A stretch of 64,000 nt of DNA from Hydrogenophaga intermedia (GTDB taxonomy: Bacteria; Pseudomonadota; Gammaproteobacteria; Burkholderiales; Burkholderiaceae_C). Location of the stretch: contig NZ_CCAE010000002.1 in the NCBI RefSeq assembly GCF_000723405.1, forward strand, positions 186,001-250,000, written 5' to 3'. The position numbers and the translations under genes were made by a program. Positions within the stretch are counted from its first letter, which is position 1, and each line of letters begins with the position of its first letter. Of this stretch, positions 9,182 through 11,867 are shown one piece after another. Under the pieces are notes generated by a model. The model searched no databases and had not been told where the DNA came from. It was given only the letters and a program-made list of their open reading frames with translations.

Positions 9182-10530
9182 GCGATGCCCGTACCGTGTC
9201 CTTCGGCGAAGCCCTGCGCTTCTGGCTCAAGCTCGGCTTCATCAGCTTCGGCGGCCCGGCGGGGCAGATCGCGGTGATGCACCGCGAACTCGTGGAACAG
9301 CGCCGCTGGATCAGCGAGCGGCGCTTCCTGCACGCCCTCAACTACTGCATGCTGCTGCCCGGTCCCGAGGCCCAGCAACTCGCCACCTACATCGGCTGGC
9401 TGTTGCACCGCACCTGGGGGGGCATCGCGGCCGGGGTGCTGTTCGTGCTGCCCTCGCTGCTGCTGCTCGTCGGCCTGAGCTGGGCCTACCTGGTCTATGG
9501 CCACGTCGGCTGGGTAGCGGGCGTGCTCTATGGCATCAAGCCCGCGGTGGCGGCCATCGTGGTGCAGGCGGTATGGCGCATCGGCGGCAAGGTGTTGCGC
9601 TCGCCGCGCCAGGCGCCCTGGCTGTGGGCGATGGCGATCGGCAGCTTCGTGGCCATCGCCGTACTCGGACTGCCATTTCCGCTGGTGGTGCTGTCGGCGC
9701 TGGCGCTGGGCTGGTTGGGCGGGCGCTTTGCGCCGGCGCAGTTCCTGGCAGGCAGCGGCCACGCCTCGGCCAAGGCTGCTGCGGCGCCTGCCGCGCCGGC
9801 GCTCATCGACGACCACACGCCCACGCCGGCGCACGCGCGCTTCTCGCGTGGCCGGCTGCTGCGCGTGCTGCTGTTGGGCGGTGTGCTGTGGGCGCTGCCC
9901 ATGGCCGCGCTGCTGGCCTGGCAAGGTGCGCAGGGCGTACTGCCCACCATGGGCGTGTTCTTCACCCAGGCCGCGCTGCTCACCTTCGGCGGCGCCTATG
10001 CGGTGCTGCCTTACGTCTATCAGGGCGCGGTGGTGCATCACGGCTGGCTCAGCGGACCGCAGATGATCGATGGCCTTGCGCTGGGCGAGACCACGCCGGG
10101 GCCGCTGATCATGGTCGTCGCCTTCGTCGGCTTCCTCGGTGGCTGGCACACCGAGGTGCTGGGTCCCGAGACCCGCTTTTGGGGCGCTGCCCTGGCGGCC
10201 ACGGTGGTCACCTGGTTCACCTTCCTGCCCTCGTTCGTCTTCATCCTGGCGGGTGGGCCGCTGGTGGAAAGCACGCACGGGCAGATGCATTTCATCGCGC
10301 CGCTCACCGGCATCACGGCGGCGGTGGTGGGCGTGATCGCCAGCCTGGGTGTCTTCTTCCTCGCCCACATCGCCTGGCCCGTGCCCGGTGGGCCTGCGGA
10401 TTTCGCGGCGCTGGCGATCGCGGCGCTGGCGGCCCTGGCGCTGGTGTGCTTCAAGCTCGGTGTCATCCCCGTGATCGCGGCCTGCGGCGCGCTGGGGGTG
10501 TTGCTCAAAGCCACCGGCTGGGCAGCCTGA
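9178..10530 (+). CDS. chrA: Chromate efflux transporter ChrA
   Basis: 450 aa, long-chain (two-domain) CHR family transporter with about ten membrane helices. The duplicated signature is visible: FGGPAGQIAVMHRELVE in the first half, FGGAYAVLPYV plus LALGETTPGPLIMV in the second. It exports chromate using the proton-motive force. I start at GTG 9178, which overlaps the chrB TGA and has GGAGG at 9168-9172, rather than ATG 9127, which lies inside chrB. It forms a two-gene chromate resistance operon with chrB. Confidence 0.93.
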   Translation: MSDARTVSFGEALRFWLKLGFISFGGPAGQIAVMHRELVEQRRWISERRFLHALNYCMLLPGPEAQQLATYIGWLLHRTWGGIAAGVLFVLPSLLLLVGLSWAYLVYGHVGWVAGVLYGIKPAVAAIVVQAVWRIGGKVLRSPRQAPWLWAMAIGSFVAIAVLGLPFPLVVLSALALGWLGGRFAPAQFLAGSGHASAKAAAAPAAPALIDDHTPTPAHARFSRGRLLRVLLLGGVLWALPMAALLAWQGAQGVLPTMGVFFTQAALLTFGGAYAVLPYVYQGAVVHHGWLSGPQMIDGLALGETTPGPLIMVVAFVGFLGGWHTEVLGPETRFWGAALAATVVTWFTFLPSFVFILAGGPLVESTHGQMHFIAPLTGITAAVVGVIASLGVFFLAHIAWPVPGGPADFAALAIAALAALALVCFKLGVIPVIAACGALGVLLKATGWAA

Positions 10531-10555
10531 CGCGCGGCCGTCACAAGCCCTGTGC

Positions 10556-10561
10556 TACATT
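10556..10561 (+). promoter_or_regulatory. -10-like TACATT before the aroG leader peptide
   Basis: TACATT is 7 nt before the leader peptide ATG (10569), predicting a 1-nt 5' leader. A recognisable -35 is lacking. No SD precedes the ATG. Confidence 0.4.
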
Positions 10562-10568
10562 GCGCCCC

Positions 10569-10643
10569 ATGCCTTCGCGCGCCGTTTACTTCGCTTTTTA
10601 CTTTTGGTTCTCTGTCCCCGGCGGACGAGAGGCGAAGACGTAA
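10569..10643 (+). CDS. Aromatic-rich leader peptide of aroG
   Basis: A 24-codon ORF, ATG to TAA, whose codons 6-14 read VYFAFYFWF: seven of the eight residues 7-14 are Phe, Tyr or Trp. It ends 96 nt before the DAHP synthase start and is followed by a strong terminator with a competing antiterminator. This matches the architecture of amino-acid attenuators (trp, pheA, his leaders): low charged tRNA-Phe/Tyr/Trp would stall the ribosome on these codons. The presence of all three aromatic residues fits a common-pathway enzyme rather than a single terminal branch. Confidence 0.85.
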   Translation: MPSRAVYFAFYFWFSVPGGREAKT

Positions 10644-10674
10644 GCGCGCCAAGCACCTCGATCAAAACCGCCGG
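10580..10674 (+). promoter_or_regulatory. aroG attenuator: alternative pairing segments
   Basis: CCGGCGG at 10618-10624 (within leader codons 17-19) is exactly complementary to CCGCCGG at 10668-10674, the 5' arm of the terminator, forming an antiterminator. CGCCG at 10580-10584, at the start of the leader ORF, can pair with CGGCG at 10619-10623 and would sequester the antiterminator arm. CTTCGC (10573-10578) can additionally pair with GCGAAG (10632-10637). A ribosome stalled at the aromatic codons (10587-10610) would cover the first segment and favour antitermination. The foldings were read by eye, not computed. Confidence 0.7.
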
Positions 10675-10699
10675 AGCCTCTGCCCGGCGGTTTTTTTTT
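10664..10699 (+). terminator. Intrinsic terminator (attenuator) upstream of aroG
   Basis: AAAACCGCCGG (10664-10674) pairs perfectly with CCGGCGGTTTT (10684-10694) around a 9-nt loop. A run of nine T follows (10691-10699). It ends 40 nt before the aroG ATG, so it must be read through for aroG expression from the upstream promoter. Confidence 0.9.
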
Positions 10700-10739
10700 G
10701 CCCCCACCATATTCCTCTAGACCCACCCAGGAGCCCGTG

Positions 10740-11867
10740 ATGAACGCCAAAGCCACTTCCGCCGCCAGCGACGCCTGGTATGCGCGTCCTCTCGACAAGA
10801 CCAGCGAGACCGACGACCAACGCATCCAGGACATCACCGTGCTTCCCCCGCCCGAACACCTCATCCGCTTCTTCCCCATCGCCGGCACGCCGACGGAAGC
10901 CCTGATCAGTCAGACCCGTCAGCGCATCCACCGCATCCTGCACGGCAAGGACGACCGGCTGCTGGTGGTCATCGGACCCTGCTCCATTCACGACCCCGGT
11001 GCCGCCCTGGACTACGCCCGGCGGCTGAAGCCCTTGCGCGAGCAGTACGCCGACACGCTGGAGATCGTGATGCGCGTCTACTTCGAGAAGCCGCGCACGA
11101 CGGTGGGCTGGAAGGGCCTGATCAACGACCCCTACCTCGACGAGAGCTATCGCATCGACGAGGGCCTGCGCATCGCGCGTCAGTTGCTCATCGAGATCAA
11201 TCGCCAGGGCCTGCCGGCGGGCAGCGAGTTTCTCGACGTGATCTCGCCCCAGTACATCGGTGACCTCATCAGCTGGGGCGCCATCGGCGCGCGCACCACC
11301 GAAAGCCAGGTGCACCGCGAACTGGCCTCGGGCCTGTCGGCGCCCATCGGGTTCAAGAACGGCACCGACGGCAACATCAAGATCGCCACCGACGCGATCC
11401 AGGCGGCGGGCCGCGGCCACCATTTCCTGTCGGTGCACAAGAACGGCCAGGTCGCCATCGTGCAGACCAAGGGCAACAAGGACTGCCACGTGATCCTGCG
11501 CGGTGGCAAGGCGCCCAACTACGACGCCGCCAGCGTGGCCGCCGCAGTGAAGGACCTCGAAGCGGCCAAGCAGACGCCGCGCCTCATGATCGACTTCAGC
11601 CACGCCAACAGCAGCAAGCAGCATGAAAAGCAGATCGATGTGGCCCGCGACGTGGGCGCGCAGATCGCGGGCGGCTCCAAGTCCATCTTCGGCGTGATGA
11701 TCGAGAGCCATATCGAGGCTGGCGCGCAGAAGTTCACCCCGGGCAAGGACGATCCCGCTGCGTTGCAGTACGGGCAGAGCATCACCGACGCCTGCCTGGG
11801 CTGGAGCGATTCGGTGCAGGCGCTGGAGATTCTGTCGCAGTCGGTCGAGGCTGCGCGCCGCCGCTGA
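10740..11867 (+). CDS. aroG: 3-deoxy-7-phosphoheptulonate (DAHP) synthase, class I
   Basis: 375 aa. It catalyses the first step of the shikimate pathway, condensing phosphoenolpyruvate and erythrose-4-phosphate. Family blocks are LLVVIGPCSIHDPGAALDYA (about residues 75-94), RVYFEKPRTTVGWKGLINDP, SDLISWGAIGARTTESQ-type sequence (DLISWGAIGARTTESQ), IGFKNGTDGN and IDFSHANSSKQ near the C-terminus. The start at ATG 10740 has AGGAG about 7 nt upstream. Isozyme type (Phe-, Tyr- or Trp-sensitive) cannot be assigned; the gene symbol is used for the family. Regulation is inferred from the aromatic leader peptide and attenuator. Confidence 0.95.
   Translation: MNAKATSAASDAWYARPLDKTSETDDQRIQDITVLPPPEHLIRFFPIAGTPTEALISQTRQRIHRILHGKDDRLLVVIGPCSIHDPGAALDYARRLKPLREQYADTLEIVMRVYFEKPRTTVGWKGLINDPYLDESYRIDEGLRIARQLLIEINRQGLPAGSEFLDVISPQYIGDLISWGAIGARTTESQVHRELASGLSAPIGFKNGTDGNIKIATDAIQAAGRGHHFLSVHKNGQVAIVQTKGNKDCHVILRGGKAPNYDAASVAAAVKDLEAAKQTPRLMIDFSHANSSKQHEKQIDVARDVGAQIAGGSKSIFGVMIESHIEAGAQKFTPGKDDPAALQYGQSITDACLGWSDSVQALEILSQSVEAARRR

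Follow-up and report, generated by a model that had tools for sequence, protein, structure and literature searches.

Attenuation of a gene for 3-deoxy-7-phosphoheptulonate (DAHP) synthase has been described for aroR-aroF of Corynebacterium glutamicum (Neshat et al. 2014; PMC11802643, PMC4046766). The aroR leader peptide contains a Phe-Tyr-Phe motif, and expression is reported to depend on the supply of Phe, that of Tyr being without effect in spite of the Tyr codon (PMC11802643), indicating that codon content is no proof of sensing. The uORFC-13-1 motif upstream of aroF in Acholeplasma, a predicted element with 24 representatives from Acholeplasma and environmental sequences (PMC8632094), combines an upstream ORF carrying at least one Phe codon and a ribosome-binding site with an intrinsic terminator in front of the DAHP synthase gene. 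Among proteobacteria, an attenuator has been hypothesised for E. coli aroF and RNA motifs have been predicted before Shewanella aroF and aroH, with a table entry of an attenuator sensing Tyr-tRNA (PMC2659441, PMC8632094); in E. coli, these DAHP synthase genes are repressed by TyrR and TrpR (PMC5343134). A leaderless leader ORF, with the transcript starting at its ATG, is known from the trpL-trpE(G) attenuator rnTrpL of S. meliloti, which carries Trp codons before a different gene and of which both peptide and RNA also act in trans (PMC7298713, PMC10117765). The Phe leaders of pheA and pheS-T (Rfam RF01859) combine a Phe-rich leader and a terminator in front of genes of the terminal branch or of a tRNA synthetase.

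We analysed a window of 64,000 nucleotides from Hydrogenophaga intermedia (contig NZ_CCAE010000002.1, positions 186,001 to 250,000; all positions below are those of the window, and the leader elements and the gene described lie on its forward strand). The gene of interest, an aroG-type DAHP synthase gene at 10740-11867, is preceded by a Shine-Dalgarno sequence AGGAG at 10729-10733, and its product scored 537.8 bits against TIGR00034 (cut-off 173.2). Since the product missed the cut-off of the NCBIfam AroG equivalog (550.8 against 568) and exceeded the one set for the Trp-sensitive AroH subfamily (501.2 against 463), the name aroG is used loosely. The closest related gene among the relatives compared (the best 80 of at least 590) is that of Hydrogenophaga pseudoflava, with 91% identity of the protein. 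In a census of the TIGR00034 and PF01474 types, a single TIGR00034 gene was found in the source genome (124 contigs, 100% complete according to its record), and none of class II (PF01474).

Upstream of this gene we found a 24-codon leader ORF at 10569-10643 (ATG at 10569-10571, TAA at 10641-10643), encoding MPSRAVYFAFYFWFSVPGGREAKT, of which seven codons are aromatic (codons 7, 8, 10, 11, 12, 13 and 14; two Tyr, four Phe and one Trp), as the initial annotation had proposed. Codons 7-14, which serve as the putative control codons (Y F A F Y F W F), occupy 10587-10610, and the predicted sensing window, codons 11-14, occupies 10599-10610. The reading frame is open upstream as far as 8931, being part of a 570-codon ORF, and the start at 10569 is therefore one that we infer, this ATG being the nearest one, 7 nt after a conserved -10 element. 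The ORF is followed by an intrinsic terminator at 10664-10699, in which AAAACCGCCGG (10664-10674) pairs with CCGGCGGTTTT (10684-10694) to form 11 perfect pairs around a 9-nt loop, followed by nine T at 10691-10699; this structure had likewise been recognised beforehand, and a simple terminator scan missed it, probably owing to the restriction of that scan to loops of 3-8 nt. Within the ORF lies the heptamer CCGGCGG (10618-10624, hereafter R2), which is identical to a part of the 3' arm of the terminator (R4, 10684-10690) and which therefore competes with it for CCGCCGG (R3, 10668-10674), the segment common to antiterminator and terminator. The role of R2 as an exact competitor, already suggested from the sequence, thus agrees with the sequence and with the covariation described below. 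R2 may in turn be sequestered in a local hairpin, of which the 5' arm is R1 (10610-10617) and the 3' arm is GGACGAGAG at 10623-10631, with one bulged base.

Among the systems described above, aroR-aroF of C. glutamicum resembles this locus in its aromatic-codon leader peptide and in the attenuation of a DAHP synthase gene, and uORFC-13-1 in the combination of ORF, terminator and gene; both are likened by description, the former belonging to Corynebacterium and the latter having a ribosome-binding site, unlike the leader studied here. The E. coli and Shewanella proposals, likewise compared by description, share with it control of DAHP synthase at the RNA level in proteobacteria, while rnTrpL shares the leaderless leader ORF, which is only predicted here. 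Searches with Rfam 15 covered the window, 20 relatives and L133, L091 and L104; no family reached its gathering score, and the aroG element of the same set stayed below the threshold of RF01859; the best weak match in the window was Leu_leader (25.9 bits against 50).

The conservation of the arrangement was examined in 79 of the best 80 among at least 590 related stretches, together with the window, a sample made up of near relatives and uneven in composition; L001 and L002, both from the own genome, and L023, which has no upstream DNA, lay outside the scan. An aromatic-rich leader ORF followed by the terminator motif was detected in 62 of the 79 scanned aroG loci. The pair was missing from the other 17, namely three of Polynucleobacter, two of Cupriavidus (one on chromosome 2), five of Rhodocyclales type, one each of Methylotenera, Enterovibrio and an uncultured beta proteobacterium, three labelled Planctomycetota, Gemmataceae or Verrucomicrobiia, and L080 (labelled Anaerolineae), in which an aromatic ORF was present and no terminator was found. 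In one relative, L025 (Comamonadaceae bacterium 2PF, about 1278-1404), the leader is divergent (MRTTVRYHFWHFHIQHLTGAGVANA, with several His codons), a terminator motif is present and no R2 core was found. Elsewhere in the source genome, L002 (G000:C62:10543-10589) matches a 3' portion of the chromate-transporter gene (about 10405-10454 of the window) over 47 bp, with 84% identity.

Conserved aromatic codons together with co-varying arms in relatives were what the initial annotation had expected of a functional attenuator, and both were observed. For the covariation, an alignment of 61 sequences was used, omitting L049 (no ATG) and L025 (no R2), while the comparison of own with swapped pairing partners omitted L025 and L060 (R2 mis-assigned); the rows are mutually related, so that the permutation and shuffle counts are not probabilities. 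For both R2:R3 and R3:R4, the own arms paired better than swapped partners, with none of 2000 permutations as good. In R2:R3, a standard pair was present in 93.8% of cells, and in 18 cells both bases had changed, the shuffles giving 6.8; in the terminator stem, 94.7% of cells were paired, with changes on both sides at three of the 11 pairs, and for the terminator together with five of the eight local-hairpin pairs, 33 cells were changed on both sides against 11.2 in shuffles. Two of the five measures in each of these pair counts were not clearly above shuffles, namely the number of pairs changed on both sides (reached by 87 of 500 shuffles for terminator plus hairpin and by 300 of 500 for R2:R3) and how many further types of pair occur (415 of 500 and 26 of 500, respectively), because most of the core never varies. 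The bases flanking the cores, before R2, after R3 and before R4, read C/G/C in 31 of the 61 rows, T/A/T in 12, A/T/A in two and, with one wobble, T/G/C in five, one of the two pairings being broken in the remaining 11. In these alignments, antiterminator and terminator co-vary.

The local hairpin at 10610-10631 showed modest covariation and is not the most stable fold: its own arms were superior to swapped arms (5 of 2000 permutations as good), and the eight pairs of the window form in 61, 37, 56, 8, 30, 44, 47 and 56 of the 61 rows. Compared with synonymous recodings, the local hairpins were modestly more stable (mean z -0.56, median p 0.27, 62 loci). It had been supposed earlier that CGCCG at 10580-10584 can mask R2. 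In a gappy region of the alignment of 61 leaders, however, three of the five positions of this mask are paired in only a minority of the rows (17 of 53, 8 of 52 and 24 of 60), and the signal from swapped partners was weak, 78 of 2000 permutations being as good as its own arms; this mask was not adopted, and the local hairpin, itself a weak candidate, is the better supported of the two.

Folding of the window sequence against shuffles gave mixed values, with z = -3.5 for 10625-10699 (1 of 200 shuffles as good), -1.4 for 10615-10699 (19 of 200), -1.9 for 10615-10682 (10 of 200), -0.3 for 10606-10682 (68 of 200), -0.8 for the local hairpin 10609-10633 (39 of 200) and -2.6 for the whole leader 10560-10705 (4 of 200). 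The comparison across loci, that is the 62 of 79 loci and the adjacency of the best matches to aroG described below, makes a stronger case against chance than folding does. In RNA ending before R4, the antiterminator was the minimum-energy fold in 59 of 60 loci with R1 masked and also in 58 of 60 with R1 free (L025, L049 and L060 being excluded), and the R1:R2 hairpin therefore cannot act by stability alone; this result and the comparison with recodings weaken the case for a strict R1:R2 switch.

An extended -10 element, TGCTACATT, is located at 10553-10561, leaving 7 nt to the leader ATG. In 50 of 90 distinct leaders, a sequence TG-N-TANNNT ends 6-8 nt upstream of the start codon, compared with 3 of 1520 ATGs at other places in the loci, irrespective of frame, and with 0-2 of the 90 leaders in nine shifted windows. 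No clear -35 element was recognised by eye, and a simple promoter scan listed no full sigma-70 match here. Many of 39 leaders lacking this spacing are of Burkholderia and Oxalobacteraceae type, and in some of the 39 a candidate -10-like match lies 20-39 nt upstream. The leader ORF of the window has no Shine-Dalgarno sequence, and a Shine-Dalgarno-like tetramer precedes only two of the 90 leaders. The spacing of the -10 element predicts a transcription start on the leader ATG or within about 2 nt of it, and leaderless translation of the ORF is predicted accordingly from the same spacing.

The presence of these elements in front of the DAHP synthase gene is confirmed. The parts, their conservation and covariation, their placement before the gene and the promoter spacing are all observed; we consider ribosome-mediated attenuation of the DAHP synthase gene by the translated aromatic leader to be the most probable reading, at a probability of about 0.93, and the proposal of a leader peptide and attenuator on this gene is strongly supported by the comparison; from the same features we infer the start site, translation, stalling, termination and the tRNAs sensed. 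Transcription would start at or next to the leader ATG, and a ribosome would load on the leaderless, or nearly leaderless, RNA and follow the polymerase. When tRNA for the aromatic codons (Phe, probably Tyr and Trp) is uncharged, the ribosome would stall within codons 7-14. A stalled ribosome covers about 12 nt beyond the first base of the A-site codon, so that a stall at codons 11-13 would hide R1 and leave the R2 core free; R2 would then pair with R3, no terminator would form and the gene would be transcribed. With plentiful charged tRNA, the ribosome would move over R2, or the R1:R2 hairpin would re-form behind it, or both, and R3 would pair with R4 to end transcription after about 130 nt. 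Since the stability of R1:R2 is by itself insufficient, termination in plenty would depend either on the hairpin forming first and lasting long enough or on the ribosome covering R2 while R3 is being made.

The codons of the leaders allow some prediction of the amino acids sensed. All 90 distinct leaders contain both Phe and Tyr codons, and 63 of them contain Trp codons as well. Among 88 leaders, the aromatic density lies between 0.48 and 0.98 over the stretch from 12 to 5 codons ahead of R2, falls to 0.32 at four codons, and is 0-0.01 from three codons before R2 to four codons after it. The control codons thus stand at a near-constant distance before R2, a pattern that arises partly by construction, as the search for R2 began behind the final aromatic codon of the run (no R2 was assigned in L102). 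The four-codon sensing window contains Phe in 88, Tyr in 62 and Trp in 56 of the 88 leaders, and YFWF, the sensing window of the present locus, is the commonest (21 of 88). The initial annotation had suggested that total aromatic supply is sensed, which is possible for a YFWF window, but Trp is missing from the sensing window in 32 and Tyr in 26 of the 88 leaders. Mixed leaders, in which a single ORF contains codons for more than one product of a common pathway, are known from enterobacteria, as in ilvGMEDA and thrA, where the codons are branched-chain or Thr/Ile codons and not aromatic. Phe is encoded in the leaders by TTT 264 times and by TTC 140 times, as against 4 and 40 times in three neighbouring genes of the window; the control codons may have been chosen for slow reading, or the preference may simply reflect structure-poor RNA.

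We give about even odds to the sensing of all three amino acids, Phe, Tyr and Trp. Somewhat short of even, and therefore offered tentatively, is a fuller proposal in which the leader would be an OR gate for Phe, Tyr and Trp aminoacyl-tRNAs on a gateway enzyme of the shikimate pathway, read by leaderless-starting ribosomes, the terminated RNA of about 130 nt would be a small leaderless mRNA, and lineages would lose or retain Trp and Tyr sensing through changes of single codons. Alternatively, the attenuator may be real and in practice sense one amino acid, Phe, with the Tyr and Trp codons carried along as tolerated passengers. Phe is the only one of the three found in every sensing window, and aroF of C. 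glutamicum is reported to respond to Phe and not to Tyr despite its Phe-Tyr-Phe leader (PMC11802643); the occurrence of Tyr codons in all leaders and of Trp codons in 63, and the prevalence of YFWF, speak against it. We regard this alternative as doubtful, at odds clearly below even, though far from negligible.

A different explanation would be that the short ORF has been selected for its peptide, as a small protein acting in trans, and that the terminator merely ends the transcript. The leaderless sORF product peTrpL of S. meliloti is active in this way (PMC7298713, PMC10117765), and a role of the peptide in trans would be compatible with attenuation as an addition to it. As a replacement for attenuation, however, selection for the peptide is improbable, for both ends of the peptide are variable among leaders, and the R2-coding part appears to be kept as RNA. 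Divided by three, the distance from the last aromatic codon to GGCGG leaves no remainder in 29 of 62 leaders, a remainder of two in 31 and of one in two (one of these being an R2 mis-assignment), and each column of GGCGG shows the same base in 60 or 61 of the 61 rows; the core is thus nearly invariant although the frame differs and different residues are encoded, which argues for selection on the RNA. The covariation of R2, R3 and R4 and the placement before aroG likewise point to attenuation rather than to the peptide. Least probable of all, and contradicted by the comparison, is the reading that a plain intergenic terminator closes the upstream chromate-transporter gene, that the ORF arose by chance and that aroG has its own promoter further on: a chromate-efflux-type ORF (TIGR00937) does end at 10530, ahead of the terminator, and the leader frame does lie inside a long chance-open frame, but in 50 of 90 relatives a promoter element separates the leader from that gene, the leaders are kept in many families and in another class, and R2 is conserved.

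For the attenuator itself, the distribution in whole genomes was determined with a covariance model built from the alignment of 61 sequences. Within the family, the model matched 146 of 150 genomes (131 of 133 of good quality; 137 of 141 genera); it matched 86 of 300 in the order, 13 of 274 in the class and 24 of 200 in the phylum. TIGR00034 is present in 233 of the 300 order genomes, indicating that many such genes in the wider order stand without a detectable element. Seven of the nine family genomes in the order draw, the source genome being one of the nine, carry two TIGR00034 genes and one model match each; usually, therefore, only one copy bears the element. The best 30 order matches, which include the window itself, all adjoin aroG (one of them, L101, is apparently the same record as L028, a member of the training set). 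In total, 67 of the 88 order matches adjoin aroG (55 by coordinates, eight by tblastn on the locus and four by reading), 10 are not beside a listed aroG and 11 lay outside the check. The 10 comprise four in one genus (three of them read), four terminators without such a leader and two partial matches. In that genus, a similar element precedes an ORF of about 200 codons in L121, L122 and L123 (genomes G117, G253 and G283; the fourth match is in G192), with a leader such as MITFSAVFNAYFYWYRSS, a GC-rich terminator and, by eye, a TTGAC-like -35; the protein of L122 gave no Pfam or NCBIfam match at threshold, and the ORF is possibly an aromatic-responsive gene.

Outside the order, 17 matches were read, of which nine precede aroG, three are known Phe leaders and five, all weak, are neither. 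The class search yielded two strong matches adjoining aroG (L114 and L115) and, among the matches fetched (three were not), five weak ones with no aroG nearby (L116-L120). Of the ten matches read from the phylum search, seven precede a DAHP synthase gene, and six of the seven come from genomes of a different class, probably the Alphaproteobacteria. The other three precede what we take to be pheS-, pheT- and pheA-type genes; their leaders, which our model found at E 2e-6 to 4e-5, match Rfam Phe_leader and are an unplanned positive control for the covariance model. Judged from these searches, the element appears to be near-universal in this family and to reach another class of the phylum.

The mechanism proposed here is a familiar one; what is new to the sources that we reached is the mixed reading of aromatic codons, a start predicted to be leaderless, and the broad distribution in front of aroG. 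The initial annotation knew of no well-described case in this group, and for this proteobacterial aroG leader family itself that holds, no published account having been found in searches of an open-access library; for DAHP synthase genes elsewhere, precedents exist in C. glutamicum and Acholeplasma and, as a hypothesis, in E. coli and Shewanella. The leader family is a conserved candidate mechanism governing the entry step of aromatic amino acid synthesis across many bacteria, for which the searches turned up no such mechanism, and its members can be detected in whole genomes with the covariance model built here. It would offer a natural system in which to study the weighing of several tRNAs by a single leader and the coordination of ribosome and polymerase on a leaderless ORF.
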